Positions 14,393 to 64,000 of a DNA stretch of 64,000 nucleotides are shown here, piece after piece. Positions within the stretch are counted from its first letter, which is position 1, and each line of letters starts with the position of its first letter. This stretch comes from Tribonema minus (lineage: Eukaryota; Sar; Xanthophyceae; Tribonematales; Tribonemataceae): contig JAFCMP010000146.1 of NCBI GenBank assembly GCA_017506865.1, positions 806,001 through 870,000 on the forward strand, read 5' to 3'. The notes beneath the pieces are model-generated. The model did not search any database. It had not been told where the DNA came from and was given only the letters and a program-made list of their open reading frames with translations. The translations under genes were made by a program, and so were the position numbers.

Positions 14393-17300
14393 ATGGTGCC
14401 ACGAGGGCAGGAGAGGAGTGCAAGCTCAAGCGCTATGCGGCGCTTTGTGTCTCTTGCATCAATGCTAGCAGTTTCGCTGGCACTCATCTGGCCTTGTGAT
14501 GCCTTCATCGTACGCATCGGCGTTCCGAATGGCGGTCGCGGCGGCGGCGTTGTCGCGAGGCTGGCGGAAACGGAGAGCTTCACATCGACAACAGAGGTTG
14601 TCGTCAGGGGGCAGCAACGAGGCCCGAGAGAGTTTGTCAGGGATGGCAGGGAGTTCCTTAAAGAGAGTGTTCAAATAGCTCAGCAGACGGGACTGAGGCA
14701 GGGCTTCAGGCGGTCGACTCAGGCTGTTGCAGCAGGTGAGAAGATGACAACGTCTATACTGCTTTGCGCCACCAGGCAACTGCGAAGGACGGGATTGGTT
14801 GCATGCAATTGCGGACTCATTGCATTCAGTAGCATGGCAAGCAAACGATTGCAGAAAGTGATGTGCTTTCTGATATTGGACTTTATTCTGCTAATCTCTA
14901 CGTGCCAGTAAGTAGCAAAGATCATACTTGCGAGGGACTATCGCAATCTCTTGTGATAATCATGCTATCAGCGTTACTTGTTGTGACAACCATTACAGCT
15001 GGGTGTCCTATCGGAAGGCAATCCACGTTCAAGCTAAATGTCGATCATGTTGATCAAGGCGTCTTAAACACCGTAGACCACAATATCAGCTGGGCATTAC
15101 AGTGTATTGCGATGGCGGTCTGATATTCTCTCCATACAAGAATCATCACAATTTCAGCGGTGCAGTACTTGGCTGCAGCTCCTGCGTCCATGGCAAGGTC
15201 TTCTGTTGCAGCAAAGCACCCAGTCGTATGGCAACAGCTTTTGCATCTGCTGCAGCTGATGGCGGTGACAGGCGCGTGTGCATCTTGAGGCTGTAGCACT
15301 GTTGCATTTGCCTGCTTGCAGAATGCATCGGCTGGTGCTGATGCATTGCACACGGGGTCATTCGATCAACTTCTTGAGTTCGTTGACAAAGTGGTTGGCA
15401 CGAGGAAGCCTGGAAGCATAAGCAGCGCCTCAAACATATATGGATTGCAGTTTTGCTGAAGGACTGTCACTGAATCACATCCGGCGCCTGGGCAGTCGAT
15501 ACGGCATAACACCCAACTCTCGTGCACTGGTGCGCACATGCTGCATGATGGCAGCCTTGCATGCCGTTGCATTACTGTAAAGGCTGGCTGTTGAGGTGCA
15601 GGGACGGCCAGCTCTCTCGCAAATCGTGCAGCTCAACCTTTCATCAGTGCTGACAGTGCACCTGCATGATGTACAACATACCTTTGCTGTCAGCCGCTGC
15701 AGCAGCAGCGACTACAGTAGCAGACAAATCACACGGCACGAGGCACATCCCTACTTCAACTTCAATTGGAAGCAGCTGCATGCAAACGCGCTCCCGAAGC
15801 TGAGTCCATGACAGCAGGACCTCACCTGGCGCACTTCGAATGTCTCCTGTGCGCGTGCGCAGGCGTTGGCGCGGCGCTGGAGGTGGCAAAGGACATTGCG
15901 CAGGGGCAGAGGCAGGGGCTGCCACCAGCGGAGGCGCTGGCGTCGCTGTCACCGTTGGCTCTCAGGCGGTTGTTTGAGAGGCTGGGCGCTACGTACATCA
16001 AGATAGGCCAGGTGAACACGACATATTGGCTTGTATGCGGCAGCACAAATGGGCTTGAATTCAGAAGCATGAAAAATAGAATTGGCATTCCTGAAGGATT
16101 CAGAACAGGAGCGTGCACGCATGGTACTGTATGGGGGTGCGCATGTGTTTTGTTCCTTCAGCTCGCTGCGCACTTCCAATATGCTACTGGCGTGCGCTAG
16201 ACACAGCCAGTCACTGGCTTTCAGTAGGTGCTGTGCTATCCTCCATTGTGCACATGCATGTCTCCACATCAAAGATGCCCTTCAAATTCTTACACGCACA
16301 TACTTGTCTGAAGGAGCACTCCTTGCACCCAGTTCAGCTTCCTCTGGCCAACCTTACCAGTCTCCCCCCCCCCCCCCCCCCCCTACGTCGCCTGCAGTTC
16401 ATCGCTTCAAGCCCCTACGCTCTTTCAGCGCCGTATGTGCTTAGTTCCAGACGCCAGGCACCGGCTCAGCCCTGAGCTCTGACCGCTCATTGAGTCGCTG
16501 TGCTGTCCTTCGTCATGCACGTACATTGCATGACTCCACCTGAAGGACGCTTTACGAACATGTATCTGCAACAGTAGTGGTGGAAGGCACTTGCGGCTAA
16601 CCACTCCTTGTCACCTAGAGCTCCACGATCTTTTGATTCGTTTCCACTTCAAGGGCGCCGTGTATATTCATGATGAGCTTTACTTATTCTGCCGTCCCTT
16701 TCCTGCCGCACGCGCAGTTCATCGCTTCGAGCCCTACGCTCTTCCCGGCGCCGTACGTGCTGGAGTTCCAGAAGTGCCTGGACAACACGGAGCCGGTGCC
16801 ATGGGCGCAGGCGCGAGAGATTATCGAGACTGATCTAGGCATGCCTCTGACGAGCATGTATGCGTACGTCAACACGCGGCCGCTGGCCAGCGCCAGCATT
16901 GCTCAGGTATGTATGTAGGCCAGCAAAAAAACAACAGGCTCGGGCACCTTTCTGCATAACAATCTTTGGAGAGATGCTACGATGCTGCTATGAATGTGAT
17001 GCGGCACGTGCAGTTGCATCAACACTGGTGGCGCGCGGCAGCAAATGCGCATGCCAGCAGATACAATGTACAGCGCGCAGGCGGTTGAGTGAAGGTGCTC
17101 GTGGCCTGCAAATGGCTACAAGCCAGATACGCAATGTTGACATGTGTTCAACTAGCATGTAGACAAAGTACACTGTTGTATAGTACAACTACGTATGCCT
17201 CGGCCTTTGATTGCTCACTGTCGCCAATTGTTATGTTGGTGGATGCATAAGATAACTTCAAGTTTCAAGTGGGGCGTCAGCTCATGCTTAGGGATATACA

Positions 17301-20300
17301 ATCAACTGATCATGCGGAATTACCAATGCCAGCATGCAACGTCTAAGCAGAGGGCCCAAATCCGAGAATGACATCAACATGCCTTCACCTGCTGCAAGCA
17401 TGGTTGACTGTGTTGTCTGGAGGACAATTGTGTCTCAATTTGACACCTCAAACTTGTCAACACTGAGTGGTACTACACTAGCAGCAGGCATTTCTGCAGC
17501 CAGGCGGGATGCTCACACTGACGCGCTTGAGTACTGTATTGCAAGCTCCTGCCCATGCCAGCTGCTGCTCACCATCAGTATCAGGAGCTCATCACTTGAT
17601 GTTGCATCTTGTGTCTTGAAGTTGCATTGCGCATGCTGAGCACAGGACACCGGCGAGACATGGCAGCACTGAAGGTCACACCTGAATGCGCTGGTGTTCA
17701 CCCAATGATTCCGCTTGATCGCCACCGCCACGAACCTCAAGTGCAACCGGTGACACTCCACGTCCCCTGCGGCAGGTCTACGAGGCCAAGCTGAAGACAG
17801 GGGAAGACGTGGTGATCAAGGTGCAGAAGCCGGGGGTTGCGGATACGCTGCGCACCGACCTTGGCTTTCTGCTGGTGCTCTCGCGCCTTGTGGAGCTGGC
17901 CAATCCCCAGTTTGCCACACGGCTCAGCCTGAGCGCGATCGTCGGCGACATCCGCAAGTGAGTCAACGAGTGAGTCAAGAGTCGCGCATGCAGGTGTGGG
18001 GTGATTGAGTGAATCACGAGTGCGGCATGCAGTTGCTACGTTTGCTGCGCGGCGGCGTGTGGGTGTTAGTTACACGTGCTGTCAGCAGGAGCGAGTGAGT
18101 GAGTGAGTGATTGAGTCATTGGTGACGTGACGTTGCTGCAGCGCTCAGCGTGAGCATCACCGTGTTGTTTTGTGCATGAGCGAGATTGAGTGCATCGGCA
18201 GTGACTGGGAGCAAATGCTTGAATGAGCCAAGACCTGTTCAATGGTGATATTTCTCCTGCGCATTTGGCCTGTCTGATTCGGCTCTTTGCCGCCAAAGAT
18301 TAAGATGGCATCATTTTTTTGCACAGTGCATGTTCACGATCATGCATCAGTGGTCGTTCAGTTCATGATTGCAACGCACATAACTGTGCAAACGATGGTG
18401 TGAACGATGTACGCAAGCCATGGTGTGCGCCTCTGGCACACACACACATAGCCTGGATGAGCTCATGTCAGTGCAGGTGCAAGAGCGAGGGTCAGTGCCT
18501 GTGGCTGGCTATAGAGACGTTCCAGAGACTGTACAACCTGAAGTTCAGTCTTGCAGTTGAAGACATCAGATGCAACATCACGAGCGAGATGCATGCTGCA
18601 GGCATTAGTTGCAACTGCTGATCTGACTGAGTGCAGCTCACCCCAACGCTTATATACAGTAATTGGTGAGTGTGTGAGTCTGATTTAGCAACTTCCTTTA
18701 TCAACTTCAAGTAGTGCAGCAGATGAAGTTGTCGACGCTGACCGTGGCACCGCTCAACCTGCAGGAGCATGATGGAAGAGGTGGACTTCACGCTGGAGGC
18801 CGACAACCTCGAGGCCTTTGCAGACTTTCTGAAGCTTGAGCAGCTGGAGGATGAAGCCACCTGCCCCAAGGTCTACAGGCAGGGCACGACCAAGAGGGTA
18901 AGGGAACTATGAAACCTTGCACAGAGTCATACTCTGATGTGCGCAGAGTCATACTCTGATGTGTTTCAGAACTCATTGCGCATTTCGCCGCTCCGTACAC
19001 ATTGAAGGATGTTACTTACAAGGAGAGATGGCGAAGTCTTGCTTGTACGCATCTTCAACTGCGAAGTGCATAATCAGCAAGGGCAGGTGCCTTGCAAGGG
19101 TCGGCTGACCAATTACCAACCCACCACGGGTTCTATGCCACATCAACTGTGCGTTGCGTGAGCGTAGCATGCGCAGGTGGTCGCATGGCGCGCCTTCATG
19201 GTGACCCACCTTCTTGTGACGCATGCACGTAGTAGCGGCGGCGCCAAAGTCTGCCACCAATCACACTGCTGCCGCCTGACCTCGCCTGTCCCACTACTGC
19301 AGTAGATTACCCTACTGTGCCCTATCTCTGAGCAGTAGCCTCTATGCTGTGCTCGGTGCTCTCACATACACCAGCGCTGTACTGTTGCATGTGTGCTGCA
19401 CCCATGCTGTGTCGCATGCGCAGGCGCTCACCACGGAGCGCCTCTGGGGCGTTCTGCTGACTCTTGAACCGTCCTGCACACATGCTTTGCTGCACGGGTC
19501 CTGTCTCGTGCTCAGGTGATCACCATGAAACGCCTCAGTCGCGTCCTTCTGACACTTGAATTGTGCTGCTGCCCCCATATGTATGTACATACATATTGTT
19601 TGCAGGTTCTCACGATGGAGCGCCTGCGCGGCGTGCCCCTGACGGACCTCGACGCGATCCGTGAGGTCACCGACGACCCCGAGGGCGCACTCGTGGCAGC
19701 GCTCAACACGTGGACGCGCAGCGTCATGGCGGCGCCCTTCTTCCACGCCGACGTGCACAGCGGCAACCTGCTGGTGCTCAGGTACGTTGCACGCCTCAAC
19801 TTGTAAATGCAACGTGCTGGTCCTCAGGTATGTTGTATACCTCAACTGGTAACTGCAACGGTGCGTGTCTGGCCTGCTGCTGCGCCCTTCTTCCGCGCCG
19901 ACGTGCACAGCGGCAACCTGCTGGTGCTCAGGTAGCGTCACAGCATAGTTACTTCAACTTGTGACTTCAACTGGGCGTGTCGTGGCCTGCTGGTGCTGTG
20001 CGCAGGGGAGTAGTTGGAGCCCGATTGAGAGGCATACCGTCCGGGTTGTGAGTGCATGGTGTTCATCTCATACAGGAGTGTGTAGCGGCACAAAGTCACA
20101 GGTCAAGCCCTTGCTGTCAACTGATTTCCTCGTGTCTTGTGTTGACGCTCTTACAGGTGAACTCAGTGTCAGGCAGAGCATGGGAAAAGAGTCAATTGTT
20201 TTCTGTACTTTGTCCTCGTCTGAGTTCATGGAACTGACGTAACGTGCCTGGAATTTTTGTGCCTCGTCTGTTGCCACAGGGACGGTCGCGTGGGCTTTAT

Positions 20301-24843: not shown

Positions 24844-25370
24844 TGTTCACCTCGAAGCGTGCGCATGGCATTTTTGTATGTTTGCCCCCCCTGTACATTT
24901 GTTCATGGGACCCTGCATAATTCATTGTTTACTCTGTGTTCCTTGCGCGCGCGTGTGTGTTGTGTTTTGCTGCCGCCCGCTCCATTCTGGTTTGTGTGCT
25001 CCACTTTAGGTGAGTAGCCTCGTTTGATGTAGACTACTCTTCCCGCAGTTAGTCGCACACACTCGCCACGCACGTCCGGTAGCAGCGGGTTTGACAGACC
25101 GGTCGGTTCTGCGTCGTGTTTATGATGTATACATGCAACCTTGAGACCCAAAAATAGCCACCTTAAATTTCACAATCAACTTGATGTTCGGCTTCATTGG
25201 TGTGCTCGCGTCGGGTGTGTGCCTGTGATTCGCAGAAGTGTCAACCCTACAAACCCTAGATTAGCCCCTAATTCAAACTTAGGCGCGGAGAACTTGAACT
25301 CGAGAGTGTGTGTGTCCCACTTGAGTGAGGAGCTGAACTAACCGGAGGTGAACACTTGAAGAGCAAAGCC
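24844..25370. other. Intergenic region between ABC1K and the BAF-like gene
   Basis: Holds the ABC1K 3' untranslated region and the upstream region of the next gene. No clear polyadenylation signal of the green-algal TGTAA type is seen. An AAACCCTA-like scrap lies near 25250. Confidence 0.4.
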
Positions 25371-27637: not shown

Positions 27638-29641
27638 CCGCGCGCGCACGCACGTCATTGCTGCATTTGTATAGTATCGGTACCGGCTGCCTGAAGAAGG
27701 GGCGGTAGCGGGGGGGGGGGGCAAATGGGGGCGAAGCTGAGAAACCGCCACCTATCGGCAGCACCGGCCAAATTGCATGTTTGCCGGGCGGCGATGCGAC
27801 CTGTTGCGCTGCGCGCTCGATGGCGCCGGTGGCGAACGTGATTCGAACGTGTGTTGCGGCAGCAGCTGCTGCGCCGGGGTGCAGCTGCCGGGCAGCACGG
27901 CTCAGCATGTGGCAGCGCTCATGCGCTCACCCTCACCACTTGCTGCCTGCGGTCAGGGCTTGAATGTGCTTGTAGCAGCGGCTGCCGTGCGTGCGCGCAT
28001 TCGCTGCGCCGATCAACAATCGGCAGCGACTGTGCGCGCGGCGCGTGAGTGGAGCAGGGATGCACAGGCGGACCGGGGAACTGCCTCCTGCTCATGGATT
28101 GGTGGGTGAGGGGGAGGGGAGGGGGGTGTGAGTTTGGTAATCACGCTCAGCACACAAGTCTTGTGGCGTAATGTCCATATTGTGAATGCCATGTGGTTCA
28201 TGCCTGTCTTTGTACTTGTCGTCGTATGCTACATACAGACTGTACCTAGCTGTGTGGCGCCATTCAGGGTGGCACACTGAAAGGAGAGCTCATGTGCATC
28301 TGCAGCATACTCAGCACGCAGCAAGCATGCCATCACCTACAAATAAGGTAGTGCGCCAGCAATGTGCATGCTGATGCACGCAGCTGATGATTACTACCAT
28401 CAGTACAAGCAGCAGACCACAGGCTGCAACTGTGGTGAGCCCTGGCTACATTGCTCGTGTCGTGCCGCGGGCCCAATGGCTGTTGTCGCTGCAGAGCAAG
28501 CATTCGCATTCTTGCTGAGCATGCATCGGACACTGTGATGATTCAAATTAGAAGCATTGTACCAGGAACGACGCAATGCAGATGGTAGCCTGCAACGCTA
28601 TACTGGAGATCACGTGTGGGATGTAACAATGGGGTGCCATGACACGCTGCTGGTAGGTGGCTGAGTCAATTCAGGCGCTTCATGGCGACTTTAAATTTAG
28701 CACCATTGTCACCCTTGTCACCGCCGGTGTGTTCAATATAGTGTAGCCTCCAGCTTGCTGGACATTTCTCCACACCTTCCTGCTTAGTCACATGCTACTC
28801 ATTTTCGCAGCAACAACAGTTCTTTGTTGCCAGATGGCAATTTCTGACTGGATGAGATCATCAACCTTGATGTCAGCAAGTATTGTTCACAAGTCGCATG
28901 GACACTATACACAACGTGCAACGCGATGAGTGCAGTCTTAAAACACAAGCAGAAACAACGCATGTGCCTCATGCCACAGCCAAACCAGCGTGAGCCAGAG
29001 TGAAACAACATATGCGTGAAGCAGTCACATGGTCAGCACGAACAAACATCAGAACTTGTGCGAAAGCATGTGTCACACCCCTGGCAAATGAACACAGACA
29101 TGAAATATTGGGCACATGGGATGCAAGCGTACGAATCAGGACTCATCCCAGTACTAGGTGGAGTGATGCGAATTATCATTTAGAAAGGTTGCACTCAGGG
29201 TCTGCCAGGCAGACCAAGGCATGCTGTGCGCTGGTGGCTCCATCACCTAAAGCTGAGAGCAGAATCCTGCTGTGTTGCATGTGCATTGTGCGTGCTTGCA
29301 TCACAGAACCGCAGCTTCTACTTTTCTGCCACCCATCCTTGTGGATCGAAAGGTTGTGTGCCACACATTACTAATCCCGGTGCCATCACCTGCGCGCCAT
29401 GAAACAGGAACGAAGCAGAAGCAGATGACACATTAATGCTGATGATGCCAGATTGCCATGCATGTTCATTAGGTCCTTGATCAAGCAGGCATGGGTCCTT
29501 GATCAAGCTGACATGGTGAATCAATGATGAAACGCTCGGGAGAGAATGAATCATGCCATGAGTTCATTGAAGTAATGGGGCTGTGGCACCAACTGGGTCT
29601 CTGTTGGTACAGCAGCCAACTTGCCCAAGGTTTGCCACTAA

Positions 29642-29680
29642 GCCCCCGCACCTCATCAAGGTCGAGAACCGGAGCGGGGG
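29642..29680. other. GC-rich hairpin
   Basis: 'gcccccgc' and 'gagcgggggac' face each other across about 22 nt, giving a stem of seven GC pairs. There is no T-run after it and no gene nearby. Its role is unknown. Confidence 0.4.
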
Positions 29681-51900: not shown

Positions 51901-54900
51901 AACCACAGAAGCAGACCTTGGTCGCTAACAGTCACAGAAGGAAGCGGCCATCGCCGCTCTCTGCTGACTACAAAGACGTGCACCTGAGCGCTCCCTTTGG
52001 TGCGTTGCGTCACCGCACGCTGAATGCTCATGCATCTCGGTGTCAACTATGTGAGCTAGCGTATGGGCTTTGTCATACGCTAAGGCAATGCAGGAACCCT
52101 TTGCGCCGACTGCTACAGAAGCAAACGTCATGGCAGCACTCGACACCCCACTATTGCGGCATGCGTTATGTGTGCGTGCCAGCTCCGCTGGGGTCCGCAG
52201 CAGACTTGAGTTGGTGATCACGACTTCTTGTTTCAGCAATTTTGTGTCTTGCACGTCTGCATCAAATCTGTGGAACCCTCTCATTACTTGGCTGCTGAGC
52301 ATCGTCACGACAGCATCACAGGATCATGAACGGGTGCCCTGCCGACACAGACAGCACCGCTTGAGGTCCGCGGTGCATCACGCAAACCTTACCGCACCTC
52401 CTGTACCATGTGTTAGAAATTGCAAAACCTACACCATCTACTTGTCAACAGCCGCTTGTGGGAATACTCAAGCAATGAGTGCCTCCTCTTGCTATTTTGC
52501 ATGCCCCCGGCACGACAGTTCGAGCTGGTGAGCGTTGACACAACGGCGGCCAAGGCGGCGCTGCTGCAGCGCGCCCTGGCGGCGCGCGACGCGCTGCTTG
52601 AAGCCCTCGTCACGCGCGCACGGGAGCGCAACAACGGCATCATCGCTCAGTACGAGACGGTCCTGGCGCGCATGTCGGAGAAGCCCAAGAACGAGGCCGA
52701 GCTGGCAGCGCTCAAGGCAAGTTGCTGCGACATGTTTATCGTGAGGTCTGCACTTGCTTTTGGTGATGCGTGGAAGCCTCTCGATGGCATGTTTGTCAGC
52801 ACGAGAGTGCTTGTGGCGCCTAAGCCAGCGATTGTCGTCACAGTCAGGCCTGCTCGCTGGCACCAGTTTGTGATGATGACATCAGATGCCGCTCAGGGCG
52901 ATGTACGATGCCAATGCTTCTGATCAGTGCGCGCTGCATGGTATGCACACCATAACGTACACTCCACCTGGTGAGTTGCTGCACGGCATGATGGTATCCT
53001 GGAGTGCAGTGCAGGCTGTCATTGTGCACTGGCGTATGTACATGCTGTGCTGCTGCTGTTCAACTCAAGTTGAGGATGCATCAAGCTCATGCGTGTTCGA
53101 GCCCGCATCCCAGTGGCAAAAGCATGAAAACAACATGTTGATAATGTGCCTCGTTGACATGCGTGCAACCAATGCGTTGCAATCGTCCGCCATCACGCTG
53201 GCAAAAGATTGACTCATAGACCTACGTCACCACAAAAAATGAATCGTAGAGCAACGTCACAACAGAGCAAGGCACCTCGAGACATGGTCAAGTACCAGCT
53301 GAGACCAATGAAGTATAGCAAGCGATACCATGCAGACGACCAAGCAACAACAATCGGCACAGCACACGAAGACTTGCAAAAAGGCCGTTGCGATACCAAG
53401 CCTGCATAGATAACATCGCATTACAACCAATCAGACCTTGATGACCGCCCGCCTCTCCGTTGACAAGAAGACAAAGATTGCAGCGCGATCTGGCAATTCC
53501 GAAAGATCTACCGAAGTGGCCATGGCATTGCGAAGACTTTCTTGTATGAGAGTGCGGGGCGACATCAGTATCAGTGCCGCTACAGCCGCTTGCACAACGC
53601 CTTCCTGACAGCTTTCCAAATCGAGGGATGTCAATGCTCTCAGCTTGTGGAATGAGCCTGGCAGCTTACTGAGCGCAGCACATTTGGGCAGCCAGAGGAC
53701 AGTCAACGCTGTCAGATTGCCAAATGACTCGGGCAATCTTGCGAGTGCCTTGCAATACGACAAGTAAGGTGTAGTCAACGCTGTCAGGTTGCCGAATGAC
53801 TCGGGCAAGCTTGTGAGTGACTTGCAAAACGACAAGTCAAGTGTAGGCAACACTGTCAGATTGCCGAATGACTCTGGCAAGCTTGCGATTGACTCGCAAT
53901 CATTTAAGTCAAGTGCAGTCAATGCTGCCAACTTGCCGAATGACTCGGGCAGGCATGCGAGTGACCTACAATGCGCCAAGTCAAGTGTAGTCAACGCTGT
54001 CAGGTTGCCGAATGAATCTGGCAATCTGGTGAGCTGCTCGCAGTGCTGCATGCTCAGCGAAGTCAATGCTTTCAGAGTGCCGAATGACTCGGGCAACCTG
54101 GAGAGCCGCTCACAGGAATCCATGATCAGCATGGTCAATGCTGTCAGGGTGACTCGGGCAACCTGGTGAGTCCCTTGCAGGAATTCACGCTCAGCATGGT
54201 CAACGCTGTCAGGTTGCCGAATGACTCGGGCAATCTGGCAAGCCGCCCGCAGTGCTGCATGCTCAGCGTGGTCAACGCTGTCAGATGACCAAAGGAAGAC
54301 GGCAAGCTGCGGACCGTAAAGTAGTCGGACAGGTTGAGCTCGTCTCTCCTATGAGAGCTAACTTCTTCAAACTCCTGAAGCATCGCTTTGTGATCTGCGC
54401 CGCTCAATCGCAAAAACTTGGAATAATCGGCCAGCCACGCTGCAAACTCTCTAGGGTCATTGGCGGCGTCTGACTTGTCGAGCATGCTCTGAATGACCTC
54501 TGGGGCATCGTCCACCAGCTGTAGTTCGGCGCGAGCTGGAATCTCTTGCCATGAAACCTTGGCCTCTACTGCTCTCGAAACGATGGCAAACACGGAGCCG
54601 GCGATATTGAACGCGCCGAATGTGGTGAGCCCGCTCATGGCCGTGTCGATGCTAGAGATGATGAGCTGCGGCACATCCTCGAGGCACATGTTGATGGTCA
54701 TTATCCAGCCGATGGGGATATGGCCATTTGAAGCGGACAGCCGTTGACACCGGCGCGAAAGGATGGCTGCGAAGACGTGAAACTCGCAAGCTACCAGGAA
54801 CCACATCACGGTGCCTATGCATGAAAACGCTATCGCTGCAGTGGCCACCTGTGATATGCCTGGGTACTGCGGCGTCGGGTTCTCTGGGTCCGTTGTGTCC

Positions 54901-57900
54901 GGGTCGTGGACGCGGGACAGCAAGTCGTAGACAAACGCCCAGTCCGTGGCGACGTCGAAGTCGGCCGCGCACGAGGCGATGATGGTGAGGGGGTCCACCT
55001 TGTTCATGATGATGGCTTTCTTCATGTCCACGACGCTTCTGCTCTGGCTCTGATTTCCAAGGTCTGCTTGTACCTCTATGTGACTGCGGAATGGAGACAA
55101 TGTCATGCCAGGAGCAGTGGTATTTCCGTGCCAGCTGTGCCGGCGTGACAAGGCTTTCTCCTCATCATTGCCTTCGCCAAGGGCGGCGGCGGCTCTCGGC
55201 GTTGTGGTGGTGGCGTCAGGCACTCCCAGGCTGGCGTGAACATCCGTGGTGCTTGCTAGCGGTGCACGGTGTGGAATGGTGATGTTTGAAGTCTGCGATG
55301 CGCCACTGACGGTGGAGGTCGCATGTGTGTCGCCGTCATCTCGCGCTTTCCACAGCTTCATCAGCGACAAGTAGATGATGTGGCTAACCATCGAGACCTG
55401 AGAAATGAGAAGCACGCGGATCGCGGACTGAGCAATTATTGCTATGTACTATTAAGAGCTGCAGCAGGTGCTTGCAAGTGTTTTCAGGGTTCGCTTATTG
55501 CAAAAGCTGGCACTGCTTGCAAGTGTCACCAAGGTTCGCCACTGCAAAAGCTGTGCCGAGGCTTTGTCGTGAGAAGTTAGCAATCTGCAACGAGATTCAG
55601 CACCACAGGGCTTGCCGGCTTTGAATAAAGATTGACCAAACTCAGAGAGGAATTTGAACCAGCGCGCTCCCGCAACTTAACGCACTACAGACCGCGATGT
55701 ACTGGTAGCTGATTGACTCGCAGTCGGTCTCCGGATATGAAGGATGGCACTGTAGAAAGTGTGTGAGGCTGGCCATCGCATCAAGTCAGGAGTGCAGTAC
55801 GGACTGAGTACATGTACCGCAGAGCTGAGGCTACATCGTTTGCGTCGCTCATGTTTTGGTTGCGAGCCATCTGCTCACCTTTTTGGACCCCGATTCACCT
55901 TCTGGCCCCGCCTCTACAGCCAGCACCAGTGCGTCTGCGTTGTGCTACTTGACCTCCGTGCCGTTTGTGTCTTTCACACCGCCTCCTGTGCTTTCTAACA
56001 GTGAGTGTTTTCGTTTCGCCGAGTTTGCGTGCCCGGAATTTTCTTTAAGGTGCGATCCAAACCTCAACTTGTGACTATATATATAAATACTTTGCGCTGC
56101 ATTGCTGAGCAAAATGTATAGCTGCCACACGCGCCTCTCCCTGCATATGCATGCAACTGCTGATTCGTCCTGGACCCCTGCTGCGCTCTTGCTGTCACAG
56201 GACTATGTGGCTGGATCAAAGGCGACCGTTGGCTCTCTCATTGCTGAGGTGAGAAAAGTCTGAATAAGGACAGGCATTGGACACGCATTTTCGGTAGACG
56301 CAGCTTGTACTCTGATATGCAAAAGCAGACCGGTAGCACCCTTGACATAAACTAGGGCTTTTTCTCGCCCTGCGCGAGAACTTTGATTAAAAGTCAAGTA
56401 CGCTGGTGATGCGCGCTCGTCACAAGTCATGACCATCGGCCATATGACACTAGCCCTCGCAGCCGTTTCAGTCCGAGCGCCGCAGTGGCTGGGTAATTTA
56501 TGTCATCTTGACAGCGGCATTCCGAAGTCACTGCGGCCTCACTCACAGGATGCAGAACGATGTGCAGTTCGTCGTAGTGCGAATCCCCTGCTGGCTGAGA
56601 TAGTTACGCTGCTTGATATGTCGTCTGTTCATTCATACTGGACTTGTTTGGCGTGGAACGTTTGAAATGAACCAGCTTCCAATTTCTGATCTCAAGCTCA
56701 ACTTCAACTCATGCGATCCTGGCGCTTCTTGCAGAACTAGCAGTGGTGGCAAAAGTGCACTACTCGACGCGACACTGTGCTTTCTTGTTAGGGTTGCAGG
56801 CTTTCTGTGTCTGCTCAGTCACCCCGGGGTATGACTGGTGGCACTGTACTTTATAGGTTCCACCGTGCTTTATGCACTTATACGATTGTGCCTTATTCGC
56901 ACATTCTCGGTGGAAGCAGCCTGGCCCTGTGCTTGCTTAATATTCACTTCGCGCTTTACAGCATATCAGACTTCTCTCCAGTCTGCACTCTGTCTCCTCT
57001 CCGGACTTGTTCCAAGCATCCTATTTTCAAACATTTCTCACAACACTTGTGCTCGCCGCATGCTTGTATTTGGTGTGCTATGCGCCACTCAAATCCACTG
57101 AGACTAGCAAGCGATCTCTAAACCATCCGCACACCAATGCAGGGCATGCTGATGTAATGCCACTTTTCCAAAGTCTCACCCCAAGCCCTAACCCTGGCCC
57201 AAACTTGAAAGTCGACTTGCTTACCGCCCCCTCAAACCTGCAAGATGTGCTGGTGTTATGCCACTACCTCTTACCCCACCCCTCCGATTCACCCTGACCC
57301 TAACCTGCAATCCCTAACCCTACCTCAAACCCTAACAGGTCGGCCGCGTGCAGTCGCTGCTGTCCGCACTGGACCCCTTCTGCCACCGCCTGAGCGAAGA
57401 GGATCTGCGCCTGGCGTGGCACACGCTAGACTACCCGGCGCTCGTGGAGCGCGCCGCTGCCAAGGTCGAGTCAGCAATTGAAGTTGACAAGGTGCGTCAG
57501 CAATTGAAGTTTTACATGTATGCAGCAAGTGAGGACTCCAAGGATGCTGATATACCTGAAATTTCAAACTTGATTATAGTAGTTGTCTGCTCGTCAGGCG
57601 TCGCAGCAATGTGCACGTATATGTGTAAGCGTATGAGCTGTATGAACTTGGTGCAAGGTTGATAATGATGGAGATCAACACGGGAACATGCCATGCGCTC
57701 AGATGCTTGTGGAGGTTGTGGAGGCAGAATGTTGAAGCCAACGCGGCTCTGGCGCCGTGTGCAGCTGCAAAAGCAGGTGGCGACAGTATGCTGGCACACA
57801 GGCACTGAGAAAGAAGCAGGACCAAACTGCTGGAGGTGTTTGAGTACATGTGATGTGCACTGACCTTTGCCACTCTCGTTACATACGAGTACAGTAGTAC

Positions 57901-60900
57901 CACGCTATTAGTAGAGGTATTGAACATGACAATGCACTACAGTTCGAGGCAAGCGGCAGGCAATGGTGCATGTGGCAGATTGACTTGATGCACAATCTGC
58001 GATGTGCCCACTCTCTGAGCTCAATCGCCACTCATGTTACATGCCGCTGCGACATGCGCAGATGATGCCCCCATGGCATCTGAAAACTGAGCACTTCAAG
58101 TGTATATTTCGACTGGCCTGCAGGCTCCGGCAGCAACGCTGTAACCCATCAACCGCATAGCACTAGCCTATACCAAAAATTGTGCCTGACCGGTGGTGTG
58201 GCACCGCTCAACCGTCGCTTTGACAGGTGCGGATGATGGACCGCCTGGCCCTGGAGAAGGAGCGGTTTGAAGAGATACTGGAGCGCTTCGAGTCTGACGT
58301 CGCGCGTGCCAAGGAGCTCGGCGACTTTGCGCAGGCAGAGGCCAACACGGACTACGTCAACAGCATCCAGGTGCGTGTGTACTTCAACTTGAAGTACCAT
58401 GTGTGCTGCAGGGTACCCGCATATGCATGCATACACGTAGGTCACGGCGACTTTGCGCAAAGCCGAGGTCATTACAGAGTACGTCAATAGCATAAAGGTG
58501 TGTATATGCTCCAAATCGTGTACGTTGTAGCGTATGTCCGTATGCACGTATGCTTGCATGAATGTAAGGCGACATCGGCAGAGGCCAACACGAGACACGA
58601 TAATGCGTCTGCTCGAACTTCAAGTGGTACGCTACGTGTTCACAGCAGCAGTCGCTGTCACGTACATGGCGCACTGCTTGTGCAGAATGCCATCACTGAT
58701 GCAGAAACTCAAACTGGTCCGCATATGTGTACACTTCAACTGATGTCAAGTGCACCATGTACTGCTTGTGTACAGGATGCCATCAACGATGCCAAGGCCA
58801 AGGCAGAGGACTTCAACGCACGTGAGCGCGTGTTCGGCTTCCCCCCCACAGAGTACCCCGTGCTCAACCTCGTGGAGCAGGAGCTGGAGCCATTCTTCAA
58901 GTAAGGGAGTGTCACCTGCTTGCATTTGCGCAAGGTCATGCGTTCAACATCGTCTGGGGCAAGGTTTTGTCACTGCAGATGAATGTACGCCAAGCATAAT
59001 ATCAGGAAGTTATCAAATTATGACTGGTACTGCAGTCTGCCCATCAGCAGCATCTGCTGTTTCCGTCAAGGCCTGTGGCGCTGCTTCTGGCATCTCACTG
59101 CACGCCGGTGCGTCTGTCAACGACAATCAACAACATGCCACAGTGTGCAGACGTCAAGGAAGAGGCGTGCTTCGCGCATGCGCGTAGCTCAGCTCCGCGA
59201 GGGCACACACTTGATCAGTAGCTGCATCGGCAGTGCTAGCAGCAACTGCGCACTTGTCAGTCTCTGCTTGGGCTGCAAGCTCCACGTGCTACTTAGACCA
59301 CGTTGGTTGCTGATTGCTGCATGTCTGCCAGCGACTGGACCGCATGCTACTACACACACCACGACCATCACCTCCGCCCTCCTCAACCCCCCTGCTGACT
59401 CCTGGTTTTCGGCTCTGTTTTGCGCCGAAATGCCAGAAACGTCGACACAAGCTCCGTGGCACTTCTATCTGTGCGTAACGGCAGTGGCCAGTATCCCTGA
59501 GCCGTGCGCACCGCTCACCCTATCTCTGGCCACATACTCACAAGCTTTCGGGGCATGTGCTGGTCGCTGCCGCAGGCTCTGGAACATGATATCCGACTTC
59601 CTGGCAAGTCGCAAGGAGTGGATGCATGGGCCGTTCCTCGAGCTCAAGGGCGGCGACATTGAGAGAGACGTCTCTGAGTGGTGGAAGACCAGGTATGTAT
59701 GTATTACGTCACGTGCTTTCTTGGGGGCTGCTTTGGGGCCTACTGTGAAGCATATGATTGACTGCAAGTGCATCAACAAGTTGGTGCGCAGTGCTCCAGA
59801 TGTCCATTGAATTGTACTGTGACACCAGCAGACCTGGTCATCGGTGGTCCCCAGGAAAATATCTTCACCTTTAGGGCTTATTGACGGTTGTCGACACTCG
59901 TGAAGCAATTTTGCATGCATGAATTCACAAGTGAACCACCATTCACTAATCTTCCTGCATCGACGGCCTGCGTTGCCGCAGTTACCGCATGAGCAAGACC
60001 CTGGAGGACTCCTTCCCTGCGGCGGCCGCTTGCGCCGCACGTCTGCGTGAGGAGACCACTGCCTTCAAAGAGCACCTGCCCCTCATACAGGTATGTCACG
60101 TGCATGCTTTGCAGCACACGATTCATTGTCCAGTGGCACAACTTTGTGCTTCAACGGTTTTGCTTTAGTTTGGGTTAGGGTCAGGGTTAGGGTTAGGTCA
60201 GGCTGCGCGCCTGCGCGAGGAGACCACCGCCTTCAAGGAACACCTGCCCCTCATACAGGTACTTCGAAGTATGTACAGTACATGCTATGCGACATGGCCA
60301 CCACTAGCAGCAACTGGTGTATCCACTGGCACACTGCTCTTGTGCTTGTCAAAGACGTACACAGGTTTCAATCTAATGAGGGGTACGGTAGGGTTAGGGT
60401 TAGGTCAGGCCGCGCGCCTTTGCGAGGAGACCACCGCATTCAAAGTGCATCTGCCTCTCATACAGGTAAGCACAGCGCATGCTTCGCAGCACAGTCACCA
60501 CTTTCAGCACTGAATTCATATTCCATTGGCTTCAGATGCTTTTCTACTTTTCAAAAATGTACACAGGTTCTGATTTAGCTAGGGTTACATCTAGGGTTAG
60601 GGTTGGGTCAGGCTGCACGCCTGCGCGAGACCACCGCATTCAAAAAGCACCTGCACCTCATACAGGTATGTAAAGTGCATGCTTCGCAGCACAGTCATCA
60701 CTATAAGCAATCTGATCATCGTCCATTAGCACACGGCTTGTTTGCTTCAAAAGTACACAGGTTCTGATTTGAGTTAGGGTTGCGGCACTGAGGCGCTGCT
60801 GAGCGAGTAGACTCGCCTGCTTCACCTGAACTACCTACACTCTTTGTGCGTCACCCAGTGGCGCGCCTGAGCGAGCAGATTCACTTATTTCACCTGAACT

Positions 60901-63900
60901 ACCTACAGCCAAAGGGAGCACATGAACTGCACTTCAACTGTAGACACGTAAATTGCAAGTGCTGACGCTGCTTGGTGACATGCCATCGCCATTGTGTGAC
61001 GTGCAGGTCCTGGCCAGGCTTGTGCTGAAGCCAAAGGGAGCACATGAGTTGCACCTCGACCGTATGTGCGTTAACCGCCAATAGTGACGCTCCATGTTGA
61101 CGCTCCATCATCGCTGTGTGACGTGCAGATCCTGGCCAGCCCGGCGCTGAAGCCGCGCAACTGGGCGCTCCTGAGCGAGCAGATTCACTTTACTTCAACC
61201 ACTTGACAATGACGCTCCATAGTGACGCTCCATCATCGCTGTGTGACGTGCAGATCCTGGCCAGCCCGGCATTGAAGCCGCGCCACTGGGCGCTGCTCAG
61301 CGAGCAGATGGGCAGCACCATCGAGCCTGATGAGGAGCTCACGCTGCGCCAGCTAGTTGATCTCAACGTGGTGCAGCACATCGAGCAAATACAGGAGGTA
61401 TGTATGGGTATGGTGCCGCTGCGGTGTATGCACATGAGCGGGTACTGGGGGCATTGTATACAATTTGCTGTGTGCAGCCTCATGACGGCATATGAGGCAC
61501 ACCAACATGTACATACTTGTATGGTGAAAACGCCAGCTTGTGGATCTCAATGTGGCAAACGTGGGAGGTATGTTTGGTATCAGTGCAGCACATGAGCAGG
61601 TACAGGGCGCATTCTATTGAATTTGCTGCGTGAAGACTCGTGTATTGTACTTCGAAGTATTGAATTTGGTGCGTGAAGACTCGTGATGGCATATGAGGCG
61701 CACAGTCATGTATATGCTGCTATGCTGACAGAGCCAGCTCGTTGATCTCAATGTGGTGCAGCACATCGAGCAAATACAGGAGGCACGCATGGTATCACTG
61801 CGCTCCAGCACCTGAGTGAATTACTGGGCGCATGGTATTGAACACGCTGCGTGCGCACTCACGATGGCATATGAAGCGCGCAGACATGAATGCAGGCGCA
61901 CAAGGGAGCAACCCCGCTGCGTCAGCCCGTGGACGTCGCCGCATGAAGCAGGCACAGGAGTTGTATCACGCGCGGAACTTGTCATGTGCAGCAGCACGCC
62001 AATGAGCAGTGCAGCATGCCGCATGCGTTTTTTTTGTGATCTCTGGGCTGCATGCATGTCTGGGTTGGCTGCATGCGCTCACGCTCACGCAGCCACCACC
62101 CACTCTGTCACGAGCGTCATATCTGAAGTTGTGCACGTGTGTACGCCCGTATGCAATGCCAGGTGGGAGTGGCGGCAGAGAAAGAGTACGGGCTCGAGCG
62201 CGCTCTGGCCAACATGAAGGCAAGCGACTGAGTGGCTGAGAGCGTTGCACGTGGCAGCCTTTGCAGATTTTAATTCAGATGCTGCTGAAGGCGCAGAGTC
62301 TGGTGCTCAGTGACCTACAACAGGTTTCATCATACTAGTGAGTTTATTATTCTTTGCACGGTAATGCTGAAGTACTGTGATAGCGAGACTGTGCGTGCGC
62401 ATACTATCTGTGGTTGAATGAAAGAGGGGTCTGGTACGGCTAAGACCACTGGTACAGCTCAAATTGTGGGTTGTGTGCTCACTCAAGTGGGCGCTAAGAG
62501 CAAGCAGAACATCAACAAACTGCAGATAAATAAGTTGAGGTCGACAGGGCTTCTCTCATTGGCATACAGGTGGACGTCAGAGTGAAGCCAACGCAGAAAA
62601 TGATTTTACGTCACGCATGTCCTTACGAGCATCAGAACAAATGGCAAGAAAACGGAATGTTGCGACAATGAGCACGATCAAAACTACTACTACTAACAGC
62701 CTTCAACTGCTACCGCTTCTACTACTCGGTCTGCAGGAGGAGTGGAGGAGCGTCGAGTTTGAAGTCAAGCCGTACAAGGAGACGGGCACGTGGGTCGTAT
62801 CGGGCGTCGATGAGATCATCGCGCTGCTTGACGATCACATCGTCAAGACGCAGACCATGCGCGGATCGCCATACATACGGCCCATCGAGGCAGAGTGTCG
62901 CGCCTGGGAGATGCGCCTCAAGTACGCGCAGGTACATGGTGGCCTCCATTTGTATTCTTACGTACTTGTTTTGTACTTGTTTTGAACTCTGATGCACTGA
63001 CCATGCGCGGCTCGCCGTACATACGGCCCATGGAAGCGGAGTGCCTCGCCTGGGAGATGCGCCTCAAGTATGCGCAGGTGCACGGATGGCCTTTGGTGTT
63101 GTGATGTACTTGATGTGTACTGTTTCGAACCCCTGATGTACTGGTCCATCGACGCAAAGTGCCGCGCGTGGGCCTCAACTACATGTAGGTACATTGATTG
63201 CCTCTAGTGTTGTGATGTCAGACTTGTTCTGTACTTTCTTTGAATTCCTGATGTACTGTACCCGGCCCATGAAGGCAAATCACGCCTTGGGAGGTGCGCC
63301 TCGAATACGCGCAGGTACCACGGCACTTGAATCCAGTGCGCACCACTGATGTACTTTTAAGGTGCCGAGATATATAGACGTCTGCGGTTGGATCGGTCGA
63401 CACCGTGCCAGCGTGCTGAGCACTGCTGACGAACTGCAACAGTCTGTGCGCAACGCCCTACCAGTCAAGTTGTAACTCTGCTGAAATGCTGAAAAACGCC
63501 GCTGGCCCTGCTCACATGCTGCTATGCACACAGGGTCTGGTGGATGAGTGGGTTGCCTGCCAGAGGACGTGGCTCTACCTGGAGCCCATCTTCTCGTCGG
63601 AGGACATCATGCGCCAGCTGCCAACCGGTGAGCGCTGCTGTTTTGTTGATGTGCTTCGACAGGAACCGCATGTGTTGCATGAGGTGCCATGGCAGTTTCA
63701 CAACTGCAATGCGTATACTTGCTCATTGGGGCACATCAAGCCATGTGTTCTGATGTGCCACCTTCATCCCTGCACATGCTCTACATTGATGGTGCGAGCT
63801 ACCATCTGTGTGCTGTACTGCTCTCACCACAAACGGCCCCGGGCCGGATTGTGAGCTGTTTATTCCCATGCACACACATGCGCATGTAATATGCATACTT

Positions 63901-64000
63901 GAAAGTGTATGTGCTTCATCACAAAATACACTGATACGGTACCGCTTCCGTGCAGAGGCCCAGCGGTTCAATGGTGTTGACGCACTCTGGCTCAAGACAC
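39903..64000 (+). CDS. Axonemal inner-arm dynein heavy chain, DNAH1 class (5' part; continues beyond window)
   Basis: Exons read, all in phase: 39903-40069, 41102-41264, 41394-41441, 42010-42533, 43904-44120, 45382-45675, 46323-46514, 47439-47513, 48017-48083, 49167-49462, 50142-50227, 50849-50904, 51442-51632, 52519-52716, 56201-56248, 57339-57491, 58227-58370, 58776-58900, 59576-59692, 59982-60090, 61254-61397, 62163-62219, 62737-62931, 63534-63627, 63956-64000 (about 1268 residues). Only the tail and linker start are here; the AAA motor lies downstream. DNAH1-like marks: 'LPLEIFDAPQFEEGDRTPEE', 'VRRLNLLFDAEQRARWEE', 'NEAELAALKDYVAGSKATVG', 'FKEHLPLIQ', 'LKPRHWALLSEQMG', 'DLNVVQHIEQIQE', 'AEKEYGLERALANM', 'LLDDHIVKTQTMRGSPYIRP' and 'CQRTWLYLEPIFSSEDIMRQ'. 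The protein drives ciliary bending. The first three exons are the least certain. Exons ending 52716 and 62219 use GC donors. The 5' part has a long Gly/Ser insert not in animals. Confidence 0.88.
41832..41870 (+). pseudogene. Echo of dynein exon 4 start
   Basis: 'gcggcactggcggcggaggc' followed by 'ggcgcgacttgc' repeats the beginning of the exon at 42010 ('gcgatactggcggcggaagc'), with a similar 'gtgtgacag/atgtgaaag' acceptor and a similar 'catg..cgtgtg' lead. It is about 178 bp upstream of the real exon. Confidence 0.8.
42640..43062 (+). pseudogene. Three echoes of dynein exon 4 end
   Basis: The coding end of exon 4 (AIAPFYEGGVWRWARCTVTG) recurs at 42640-42703 ('gccatcgcgccaagctacga', donor changed to GGTAAT), 42815-42883 (more decayed, donor GGTGAG kept) and 42985-43062 ('caccattgcgtcgtactacc', strongly decayed). 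Each copy is preceded by 'ggcggtggc'-like sequence and followed by a similar 'caggcgttg(c/t)tggtgt' or 'gttgaagttgaagt' stretch. Confidence 0.88.
43186..43217 (+). repeat. Telomere-like run in a dynein intron
   Basis: 'gcgttagggttacggtgagg' followed by 'gttagggttagtg': four or five imperfect TTAGGG units. It lies after the third exon-4 echo. Confidence 0.7.
43531..43570 (+). repeat. Dispersed repeat family R1, partial copy 3
   Basis: 'tgtcacctagagccctacgg' then 'tttttttattcgtattcata' matches the right half of the copies at 6809-6910 and 16566-16650. Confidence 0.55.
44162..44925 (+). pseudogene. Six tandem echoes of dynein exon 5 end
   Basis: The last ~72 nt of exon 5 (coding MARLRFDHYLSRRPMDNLRA) and its donor are repeated with copy ends at 44234, 44355, 44494, 44649, 44783 and 44920; the real donor is at 44120. 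Spacing is 114, 121, 139, 155, 134 and 137 nt. The first copies keep the frame and a GTGCGT donor (the second reads GTGCGTTAG). Later ones have GTTTGA or GTGGGT and more substitutions. The sequence after the donor ('cagctctg..gttgaagttgcagta') is repeated too. This is the longest and clearest array in the window. Confidence 0.92.
45088..45320 (+). pseudogene. Two echoes of dynein exon 6 start
   Basis: The intron end 'ctcattgctcaacag' plus 'gggtcagtgctccgcgccat' is repeated at 45088, and a weaker one 'catcatcgctcaacacag' plus 'ggctccgtcgg' at 45298, before the real exon at 45382 ('catcgctcaacacacag' plus 'gggtcagtgctccgcgccat'). Confidence 0.85.
45795..45850 (+). pseudogene. Echo of dynein exon 6 end
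   Basis: 'ctgctgccgcggccgccggc' followed by 'cgccgctggttcggccag' + GTACGA repeats the exon end coding LPRPPPLPRRRWYGK, still in an open frame as LPRPPAPLRRRWFGQ. It is about 172 bp downstream of the real donor. Confidence 0.85.
46565..46860 (+). pseudogene. Three echoes of dynein exon 7 end
   Basis: 'cccttgccagctggcggcat' + 'ttcag' + GTACTT (46565-46602), 'ccccttgccagctggcggta' (46650-46695, donor lost) and 'cccttgccagtcggagccta' + 'atcag' + GTACTT (46815-46855) repeat the end of exon 7 (coding CQLAAFQ). The first two share 'acttcaagtgtgacgca' after the donor with the real intron start 'gtacttaagtgtgacg'. Confidence 0.88.
48105..48125 (+). pseudogene. Short echo of dynein exon 9 end
   Basis: 'cctgtatcggacatcag' + GTCACA repeats 'cctctaccggacatcag' + GTCAGC at the end of exon 9 (48083). 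It is short but keeps the donor. Confidence 0.65.
48430..48545 (+). pseudogene. Echo of dynein exon 10 start
   Basis: A 110-bp copy of the exon 10 start, from 'ttgctgcgccacgtggagct' to 'gccgcgtggcgcgcattcaa', stays open (QLLRHVELRMSFQLRGLFTS) before turning into intron. The real exon begins at 49167. Between them lies a GACTCCG repeat field. A splice into this copy would join the wrong end. Confidence 0.9.
48590..49085. repeat. GACTCCG / CGGAGTC palindromic repeat field
   Basis: Two clusters (48595-48775 and 48925-49085) of repeats such as 'cgactccgactccgctccgg' and its complement 'ccggagcggagtcggagcg' face each other. The repeats keep Ser/Arg-rich frames open on both strands. They lie inside the dynein intron between an exon echo and the real exon, and could form long hairpins in the pre-mRNA. 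Confidence 0.85.
51740..52010 (+). pseudogene. Two echoes of dynein exon 13 end
   Basis: 'gcggccatcgcctcactctc' + 'cgccgattgcgaggaag' (51750-51790) and 'gcggccatcgccgctctctg' + 'ctgactacaaagac' + GTGCAC (51946-51978) repeat the exon end coding AIASLSADCEE. Intron bases after the second donor ('ctgagcgctccctttggtgc') repeat the real intron start ('ctgagcgcgcgctttggtgc'). Confidence 0.87.
53431..55401 (-). CDS. XKR-like membrane domain fused to leucine-rich repeats, nested antisense in a dynein intron
   Basis: Read on the minus strand from an acceptor-like site at about 55401 ('tctcatttctcag' + GTCTCGATGG), with in-frame ATGs there and at 55415. The N-terminal ~270 residues have 'CAADFDVATDWAFVYDLL', a hydrophobic span 'AAIAFSCIGTVMWFLVACEF', and 'MTINMCLEDVPQLIISSI'; the 'D..TDW' and 'EDVPQLII' motifs recall XK-related scramblase-type membrane proteins. 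Then come ten leucine-rich repeats of 24 residues with consensus LPESFGNLTALTTLDLxxCxxL, the plant-NLR/'LPESFG' type. Near 54144 one repeat lacks about 7 bp relative to its neighbours, so the frame changes between the first two repeats and the other eight, which end at a TAG at 53431. The gene is therefore a broken copy, or spliced there. It lies wholly inside the 3.5-kb dynein intron 52717-56200. A receptor-like role is inference. Confidence 0.7.
56352..56400 (+). mobile_element. Small LINE-tail relic
   Basis: 'agggctttttctcgccctgc' followed by 'gcgagaactttgattaaaag' matches the terminal part of the LINE tail at 3552-3594 ('gggctttttcgcgccctgag', 'cgagaattaataaaaag'). Only about 45 bp remain. 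It sits in the dynein intron after exon 15. Confidence 0.65.
57175..57338 (+). repeat. CCCTAA-rich 3' end of a dynein intron
   Basis: Scattered CCCTAA units ('aagccctaaccctggccc', 'ctgaccctaacctgcaatcc', 'ctaaccctacctcaaaccct') run directly into the acceptor 'ctaacag' of the exon at 57339. The telomere-like repeat thus supplies the pyrimidine-rich tract and the branch-like CTAAC of this splice site. Confidence 0.8.
58440..58605 (+). pseudogene. Two echoes of dynein exon 17 end
   Basis: 'cggcgactttgcgcaaagcc' ... 'tacgtcaatagcataaag' + GTGTGT (58446-58497) and a remnant 'gcagaggccaacacgagaca' (58579-58598) repeat the exon end coding GDFAQAEANTDYVNSIQ (real donor after 58370). Confidence 0.85.
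60160..60665 (+). pseudogene. Three echoes of dynein exon 20 end, each led by TTAGGG repeats
   Basis: Copies end at 60258, 60465 and 60665 (real donor after 60090). Each has 'gcgcctgcgcgaggagacca' or a variant, 'cacctgcccctcatacag' and a GT donor (GTACTT, GTAAGC, GTATGT). Each is preceded directly by telomere-like sequence: 'gggttagggttaggtcaggc' (60184-60203), 'gggttagggttaggtcaggc' (60392-60411) and 'gggttagggttgggtcaggc' (60594-60613). A further TTAGGG scrap without a clear copy follows at about 60772. Confidence 0.92.
60168..60203 (+). repeat. Telomere-like run at the first exon 20 echo boundary
   Basis: 'tttgggttagggtcagggtt' then 'agggttaggtcagg'. Similar runs recur at 60384-60411, 60586-60613 and, weaker, 60768-60782, with a period of about 200 bp matching the echo units. 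Confidence 0.85.
60786..61192 (+). pseudogene. Four echoes of dynein exon 21 start
   Basis: Weak copies at 60786-60815 ('gaggcgctgctgagcgag') and 60856-60890 ('cagtggcgcgcctgagcgag'), then copies at 61006-61050 ('gtcctggccaggcttgtgct') and 61129-61190 ('atcctggccagcccggcgct' ... 'ctgagcgagcagattcactt') precede the real exon at 61254 ('atcctggccagcccggcatt'). The last two share the acceptor lead 'cgctgtgtgacgtgcag'. Confidence 0.87.
61534..61790 (+). pseudogene. Two echoes of dynein exon 21 end
   Basis: 'agcttgtggatctcaatgtg' + 'gcaaacgtgggag' + GTATGT (61534-61570) and 'gctcgttgatctcaatgtgg' + 'caaatacaggag' + GCACGC (61738-61784) repeat the exon end coding LVDLNVVQHIEQIQE. The following 'atggtatcactgcgctcca' style intron bases are repeated too. 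Confidence 0.87.
62992..63316 (+). pseudogene. Three echoes of dynein exon 23 end
   Basis: A very good copy at 62998-63076 ('gaccatgcgcggctcgccgt' ... 'ctcaagtatgcgcag' + GTGCAC) still codes TMRGSPYIRPMEAECLAWEM in frame. A poor one lies at 63142-63182 and a partial one at 63262-63314 ('cggcccatgaaggcaaatca' ... 'cgaatacgcgcag' + GTACCA). The real donor is after 62931. Confidence 0.9.

Follow-up and report, generated by a model that had tools for sequence, protein, structure and literature searches.

In the genome of Tribonema minus, exon edges of the sampled genes recur as extra copies inside the adjoining introns, and these exon-edge echoes are real, being carried by about a quarter of the exon ends tested. 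The original copy stays as exon and the additional ones sit in the intron, either as repeats of the exon end with its 5′ splice site or of the 3′ splice site with the exon start that follows. We tentatively, with somewhat less than even confidence, read them as minisatellites of the mirage type, i.e., as small tandem duplications enriched at exon edges, which would arise by break fill-in and end joining, be filtered by splicing and subsequently decay.

The window, by which the whole analysed stretch of 64,000 nucleotides is meant, belongs to a genome of 158.2 Mb in 554 contigs and contains an ABC1K gene together with part of a gene for an axonemal dynein heavy chain (Table 1). The latter has 76 kept exons and ends at 109640 in window coordinates, 45.6 kb past the window (stretches L010-L014). 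Exon positions come from a self-made gene finder and, for dynein, also from alignment to two homologs, from Pylaiella littoralis (P0121) and Chrysoparadoxa australica (P0122), to which the 3806-aa query is 74 and 73% identical, respectively, over 100% of its length. For the ABC1K protein the closest homologs (with precomputed PF03109), at 56-65% identity, come from brown algae and further ochrophytes, among them Ascophyllum, Discosporangium, Ectocarpus and Vaucheria; these relatives, Pylaiella and Chrysoparadoxa belong to one clade of ochrophytes. Gaps of more than 10 residues against both dynein homologs occur in 3 of the 76 exons (42082, 45382, and 99124), and the protein of the kept exons aligns to the homologs without echoes. 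Ten ab initio exons, out of the 89 first predicted for dynein, coincide with echoes, which is a warning for annotation; they were flagged by repeated peptides, a judgement later upheld by homolog alignments closing without them, and were dropped before counting, as were two ab initio dynein exons upstream of 42082 and the ab initio exon 48579-48763 (without homolog support). Exons 67532 and 106893 were shifted 12 nt upstream to match the homologs. A self-training gene finder with low intron cost overpredicted and was discarded. The “BAF-like” gene, whose exon is a prediction of the gene finder alone, was left out of the statistics. Several features were noted alongside. The ABC1K frame is broken near 24660 in a G/C-rich homopolymer stretch, possibly by a sequencing indel, and GC-AG introns are frequent, with GC donors in 8 of the 86 ABC1K and dynein introns. 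Part of a mobile element, including a reverse transcriptase domain (RVT_1, E=1.1e-10), lies at about 398-3163 (+), an open frame of 559 aa with ankyrin repeats and a coding repeat of 81 bp at 35333-37009 (-), and leucine-rich-repeat open frames with a 72-bp coding repeat at 53434-55448 (-), nested in the longest dynein intron (52717-56200).

Table 1. Genes, exons and exon-edge echoes in window coordinates
Feature	Position	Strand	Basis or remark
ABC1K (aarF/UbiB-type kinase) gene, 12 exons	14393..24843	+	exon models and PF03109 homologs
ABC1K exons 1-4	14393-14735, 15863-16011, 16718-16906, 17776-17957	+	
ABC1K exons 5-8	18765-18897, 19606-19781, 20280-20327, 20875-20935	+	
ABC1K exons 9-12	21526-21700 (GC donor), 22295-22500, 23822-23905, 24578-24843	+	
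Echo, start of exon 16718 (3′ splice site side)	16398..16451	+	further-copy search
Echo, end of exon 19606-19781	19879..19931	+	further-copy search
Three echoes, start of exon 22295	21815-21839, 21978-22005, 22138-22161	+	further-copy search
Echoes 1-3 of six, end of exon 22295-22500 and 5′ splice site	22569-22633, 22695-22761, 22826-22899	+	
Echoes 4-6 of six, end of exon 22295-22500 and 5′ splice site	22970-23036, 23110-23148, 23240-23300	+	
“BAF-like” echoes upstream of predicted exon 27419-27624	27061-27185, 27265-27330 (span 27061..27469)	+	self-comparison pairs
Axonemal (DNAH7-like) dynein heavy chain, 21 kept exons in window	42082..64000	+	gene finder and homologs
Three echoes, end of exon 42082-42533	42631..43043	+	further-copy search
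Six echoes, end of exon 43904-44120 and 5′ splice site	44162..44920	+	further-copy search
Echo, start of exon 45382-45675	45088..45115	+	further-copy search
Echo, end of exon 45382-45675	45801..45846	+	further-copy search
Two echoes, end of exon 46323-46514	46563..46679	+	further-copy search
Echo, start of exon 49178-49462	48452..48532	+	further-copy search
Echo, end of exon 51442-51632	51749..51783	+	further-copy search
Echo, end of exon 58227-58370	58445..58493	+	further-copy search
Three echoes, end of exon 59982-60090	60202..60665	+	each preceded, at a few bases' distance, by the end of a TTAGGG tract
Two echoes, start of exon 61254-61397	60782..61184	+	further-copy search
Two echoes, end of exon 61254-61397	61531..61782	+	further-copy search
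Three echoes, end of exon 62737-62931	62999..63314	+	further-copy search
Echo, start of exon 64099-64251 (beyond window)	63956..64000, runs to 64004	+	further-copy search; outside the 37 copies of the window

Self-comparison of the window gave 63 direct repeat pairs and a single inverted one (E<1e-4, distance below 1 kb). When 40-nt exon edges of ABC1K and dynein were aligned with up to 1500 nt of the adjoining intron, matches scoring at least 34 were obtained in the downstream intron for 22 of 86 exon ends and in the upstream intron for 23 of 86 exon starts, as against none at this score in the opposite introns (starts with downstream and ends with upstream introns, 0/84 each), with mid-exon pieces (0/58 and 0/58), with reverse complements (0/86 and 0/86) or in shuffled introns (0/860 and 0/860). 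At a score of 30 the numbers were 25/86 for ends and 26/86 for starts, with one upstream match among mid-exon pieces (1/58) and none in the remaining controls. The preliminary description, made by eye, had claimed copies of exon edges in introns, on the intron side, in direct orientation and each specific to its own exon; their existence is confirmed by these counts for ABC1K and dynein, and their placement, orientation and specificity hold in the opposite-intron and reverse-complement controls and in the genome search with two units considered below. Its statement that large introns are mostly of this make goes too far, an echo being present in 38 of the 86 introns. An edge test was also run on a further sample of 17 stretches (190 kb: 14 arbitrary 10-kb pieces and three from other dynein loci), with the same outcome. 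Here, where ab initio exons had to measure 120 nt or more and the score was 36, echoes were seen at 25 of 72 exon ends and at 22 of 83 exon starts, compared with 2/83 and 1/84 in the mid-exon controls and 0/83, 0/84, 0/83, and 0/84 in the others. Repeat clusters lie there at a predicted edge in 62 cases, off the edge within 1500 nt of an exon in 24 (a class probably inflated by missed exons), far from exons in five and inside or across an exon in three; stretches L016 and L023 of the 17 contain no repeat cluster, and L020, L022 and L026 none at an edge.

Tandem arrays are hard to assemble, and echoes could in principle be assembly artefacts. We give this practically no credence: the differences between most copies amount to several and up to about 30 per cent, several contigs show echoes, and a duplicate contig (L034, G000:C385:1-10000) repeats 10 kb with the ABC1K arrays, matching window positions 20557-30557 at 99.97% identity with three gaps and no mismatch. 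The duplication of this contig is itself probably assembly redundancy.

Extending the search to 100-nt exon edges of ABC1K and dynein (the further-copy search of Table 1) yielded 95 copies at 49 borders, one copy at 24 borders and two to six at 25, and 83 of the 95 reach the splice border within 3 nt. For the window this means 37 copies in 14 of the 31 introns wholly inside it, 11 in ABC1K and 26 in dynein, where 14 and 34 had been counted by eye; of the two “BAF-like” copies reported at the same time the repeats stand, and the gene name, with no Pfam hit, is not supported. Irrespective of exon positions, 46 repeat pairs (not all independent) were found to hold at least 25 exon and at least 40 intron columns. 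The repeat unit spans the exon-intron boundary, on the 5′ and on the 3′ side alike, and the presence of exon edge, splice site and intron within it supports the suggested duplication across the border. Period quartiles at the 49 curated borders are 143, 190 and 320 bp. Donor and acceptor sides are affected equally (22 versus 23), which gives no sign of a direction; the suggested transcription- or R-loop-linked origin is conceivable. Of the 84 internal exons, 9 carry echoes at both ends where 6.9 would be expected, and echoed exons are longer (median 187.5 versus 130.5 nt, p=0.001).

Tandem order is plain in about half of the 45 best pairs, i.e., in 22, of which 17 overlap over more than one period, forming several units in a row, and five abut within 16 nt; in the other 23, non-aligning stretches of 38-624 nt separate the copies. 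These spacers could come from decay, from the loss of middle copies or from insertion in a non-tandem manner. Together with the observation that clear similarity of the intron flank past the first 8 nt (z≥4) is confined to 18 of the 87 copies found by exon seeding, they are what may be brought forward for templated insertion, during repair, of a short exon-edge copy into the intron instead of tandem duplication. Against it stand the overlapping and abutting pairs, the sharing of both exon and intron parts in the 46 pairs and the complete lack of reverse-orientation copies in the two reverse-complement controls, so that we consider it improbable.

Two units compared with the whole genome by DNA search, very common words being skipped, matched their own locus only, with the duplicate contig in addition for ABC1K. 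The two units are thus not dispersed repeats or introners with one unit at many loci, in support of the earlier opinion that echoes do not make up an ordinary repeat family. Introner transposons and duplication of an AGGT-bearing exon piece are both described as routes of intron gain in the available portions of PMC3443670 and PMC9860276, and echoed introns might have been born by one of them. The former is opposed by the locus-specific matches of the units. The latter would bring a duplicate of the preceding exon's end right up to the acceptor and leave the intron between two exonic AGGT copies, whereas here copies of exon ends carry the donor and, in many, intron sequence behind it, the intron is not so enclosed and opposite-intron tests are empty; birth of these introns by either route is very hard to credit. 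Growth of existing introns, as had been surmised, is in agreement with their length (median 830 nt with an echo versus 589 nt without, p=1.2e-4). Exon-touching clusters span 28% of intron bases in ABC1K and dynein and cover more than half of 21 of the 86 introns. The many decoy splice sites that were anticipated are likewise present: of the copies extending to the border, 40 of 46 on the donor side still have GT or GC, and 30 of 37 on the acceptor side still have AG.

Preference for splice borders, another point of the preliminary description, is supported beyond what uniform duplication would give. Local repeat clusters in ABC1K and dynein (n=57) comprise 48 that span an edge, three that touch an exon, one of them wholly within repetitive coding sequence, and six confined to introns, including one (53616-54309) that overlaps the leucine-rich-repeat-coding part of the nested minus-strand gene; clusters with a pair of at least 85% identity number 27 at edges, one inside an exon and three in introns only. 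Enrichment of this kind might be merely apparent if tandem duplications fell uniformly and the fixed exon kept the copies at edges recognisable for longer, and the data do contain the asymmetry on which that account relies. Pooled over the 46 border-spanning pairs, divergence is 0.117 in the exon-echo part, where drift is mainly one-sided, and 0.253 in the intron-intron part, where both sides drift, and the ratio of about 2 is expected if the exon is held while everything else drifts. Uniformly placed tandem duplications were therefore simulated with exons at 0.3 of the neutral rate and the rest neutral with indels, under assumed rates and a like score cut-off (6000 draws at each of two age ranges; periods taken from 42 of the 45 observed, the three longest omitted). 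They predict 0.50-0.59 edge clusters per intron-only cluster, while 48:6 was observed overall and 27:3 among the least diverged. The simulation also fails to produce a limit to the exon part of the echoes, 39-43% of exon parts being predicted to exceed 90 nt; in the 106 echoed borders (49 curated and 57 from predicted exons) the median is 49 nt, three exceed 90 and none 120, and this although the exon is 150 nt or longer at 35 of the 49 curated borders. Uniform duplication accordingly retains a decidedly small probability. We read the exon-part limit as a splicing filter, a mutational limit being equally possible. In duplicated-splice-site experiments of 1986, Reed and Maniatis are said to have found that exon context decided the choice.

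Differences between exon and echo fall unevenly on codon positions 1, 2 and 3, at 126/1566, 96/1564 and 323/1551 (8.0, 6.1, and 20.8%), giving pN/pS of 0.24. This value, the absence of a stop from 86 of 95 copies (a stop occurs in nine) and the splice-site scores, which exceed the lower quartile of real sites in 21 of the 46 copies with a donor and in 15 of the 37 with an acceptor, would suit echoes selected as alternative exon ends or as decoy splice sites. The third-position excess, though, traces largely to the exon. Third positions with A or T in the exon differ from the echo in 118 of 199 cases and those with C or G in about 15%, which points to change in the exon, and, on the assumption of balanced exon flux, echoes would change about equally at the three codon positions. 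In relation to positions 1 and 2 the excess is 2.93-fold (95% range 2.38-3.78) between exon and echo and 1.86-fold between echoes. Net frameshifts in 21 of the 95 copies also disagree with selected function, and so do splice dinucleotides, which decay like the rest, being kept about as well as adjacent exon bases and near the level predicted from overall identity. A strong coding constraint on echoes, initially deduced from pN/pS, was withdrawn once exon change had been separated from echo change. Weak constraint is possible in view of the codon-position excess and the faster divergence of introns (per lineage about 0.126 in intron parts, 0.066 and 0.047 at echo positions 1 and 2). Copies diverge, roughly, as if neutral, and we see little likelihood that echoes are maintained by selection. 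The sharp fall in identity that ungapped profiles show at the border stems in part from seeding with exons, and the exon-independent pairs were used in its place; an intron-seeded search, which may pick up the original exon in places, was not used.

Among pairs with gaps of no more than 12 nt either way, eight tidy tandem pairs (at least 84% identity) have junctions ranging from a 5 bp overlap to an 11 bp filler. The two youngest, which may or may not lie at exon edges, are a 331-bp pair of 100% identity and a 133-bp pair of 99%, sharing 0 and 1 bp, respectively. A perfect 331-bp tandem duplication with a blunt junction is located at L019:2746-3407. Telomeric tracts (at least 9 nt) number 26 in the 86 introns, and telomeric 9-mers are absent from all exons of ABC1K and dynein. 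Within 20 nt of echo junctions these 9-mers occur in 5 of 95 cases (1.1 expected), all from only two arrays, at exon end 60090 and exon start 104889, in which the tracts lie a few bases from junctions. Telomeric repeat also forms part of one donor (exon ending 100767) and of one acceptor (exon 57339), and TTAGGG in three units has 5238 forward and 6236 reverse matches in the genome, overlaps and chromosome ends included. In a 314-kb sample, 282 occurrences of the 7-mer ACTTCAA or its complement were counted (about 37 expected), in both orientations. Many a time they are lengthened into near-palindromes, ACTTCAAGT for instance, and in the two genes their density is 1.4 per kb in introns and 0.55 per kb in exons. 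As a signal of duplication ACTTCAA/TTGAAGT was rejected, the association with junctions (16 of 95 within 60 nt, 6.5 expected) being weak and not independent.

The little microhomology or short fillers of young pairs and the telomeric repeats at some junctions are the grounds on which break fill-in and end joining is proposed; the break-repair step rests on the eight tidy pairs and its telomeric support on the two arrays. The first duplication would start from a staggered break, both strands of which are filled in and closed by end joining. According to the consulted part of PMC8355091, fill-in with Ku-dependent joining does yield small tandem duplications, and the accessible text of PMC2246262 has telomeric repeats entering at breaks, with the flanks duplicated at 6 of 130 loci in rodents and at 4 of 25 in primates. 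Later copies would be added by turnover of the minisatellite type and lengthen the intron, and copies with a long exonic part would be purged, as the splicing machinery would use them, whence the exon-part limit. Chromatin, the GC step, transcription or splicing are candidate causes of the edge preference. A variant of this scheme, possible but doubtful in our judgement, is that break repair aimed at borders, perhaps employing telomere fill-in or telomerase activity, keeps adding copies, so that introns would grow from their ends with an exon part below about 90-100 nt set by spliceosome recognition; if this is true, the genome is a natural mutagenesis experiment on the exon length needed before a duplicated splice site is used.

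Classical minisatellite birth at exon edges, by replication slippage or unequal exchange without a start in break repair, would account for the 25 of 49 echoed borders with two or more copies and has a parallel in the amphioxus mirage, whose copy number differs between haplotypes in the available sections of PMC3087553. Slippage, however, needs flanking homology for the first duplication of a unique sequence, and the youngest pairs, a small sample, share 0 and 1 bp. We consider classical birth unlikely, if a reading to be reckoned with, and continue with small duplications initiated by break fill-in and end joining.

Small local duplication favouring exon edges looks like an important builder of introns in this genome, and this bears on the open question of where intron sequence comes from, given the share of intron bases that border-copy clusters occupy in the two genes. 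The edge bias is clear, and the exon-part limit is amenable to testing in cells. Internal gene duplication was reportedly presented by Gao and Lynch in 2009, a study cited in PMC3087553, as ubiquitous and as a general eukaryotic process; that work is not known to give an edge-specific measure. The preliminary description knew of no genome of this kind, and the idea that nothing like echoes had been described is not supported, given the amphioxus mirages, which share their structure (PMC3087553, BMC Evol Biol 2010). As set out in the part of that paper at hand, mirages are tandem repeats across exon-intron boundaries of Adh3, BflGb6 and BflGb9, with units of 10-160 bp (81-100% identity in BflGb6) and decoy AG/GT sites; both boundaries are hit, splicing proceeds without visible disturbance, haplotypes differ and the mechanism is called unclear. 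Echoes resemble them in units composed of exon edge, splice site and intron, in the involvement of 5′ and 3′ boundaries and in decoys, and so, judged from sequence alone, come under the definition of mirages. They differ from what these pages report, single loci of a cephalochordate with haplotype differences in copy number, in occupying about a quarter of borders in an ochrophyte, with longer periods (median 190), mostly decayed copies and some telomeric junctions. In the open-licence literature, outside which most subscription papers fall, no account was met of a genome where mirage-type echoes are general. The novelty lies in the occurrence in a distant lineage, that of an ochrophyte close to brown algae, in its pervasive scale and in two measured regularities, the bias to edges and the limit of the exon part. 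A curiosity of a few amphioxus genes is linked to a pervasive process in a distant eukaryote.

Other known systems share single traits with the echoes. The potato RdRp case, in the excerpt of PMC4974935, is also a tandem duplication across an intron-exon boundary, but a new intron arises from it, whereas with echoes the exon structure is kept and copies come to lie inside the existing intron. Fill-in by CST/Pol alpha-primase with Ku end joining gives duplications that are direct and short like the echoes; in the consulted part of PMC8355091 these are demonstrated at nickase-made breaks in cultured cells, while for echoes the same course would be read from scars. Interstitial telomeric repeats of mammals, to which the portion of PMC2246262 at hand ascribes a break-repair origin, have their likeness in the TTAGGG tracts of introns and of two array junctions, the Tribonema genome differing from the mammalian situation in its thousands of matches.
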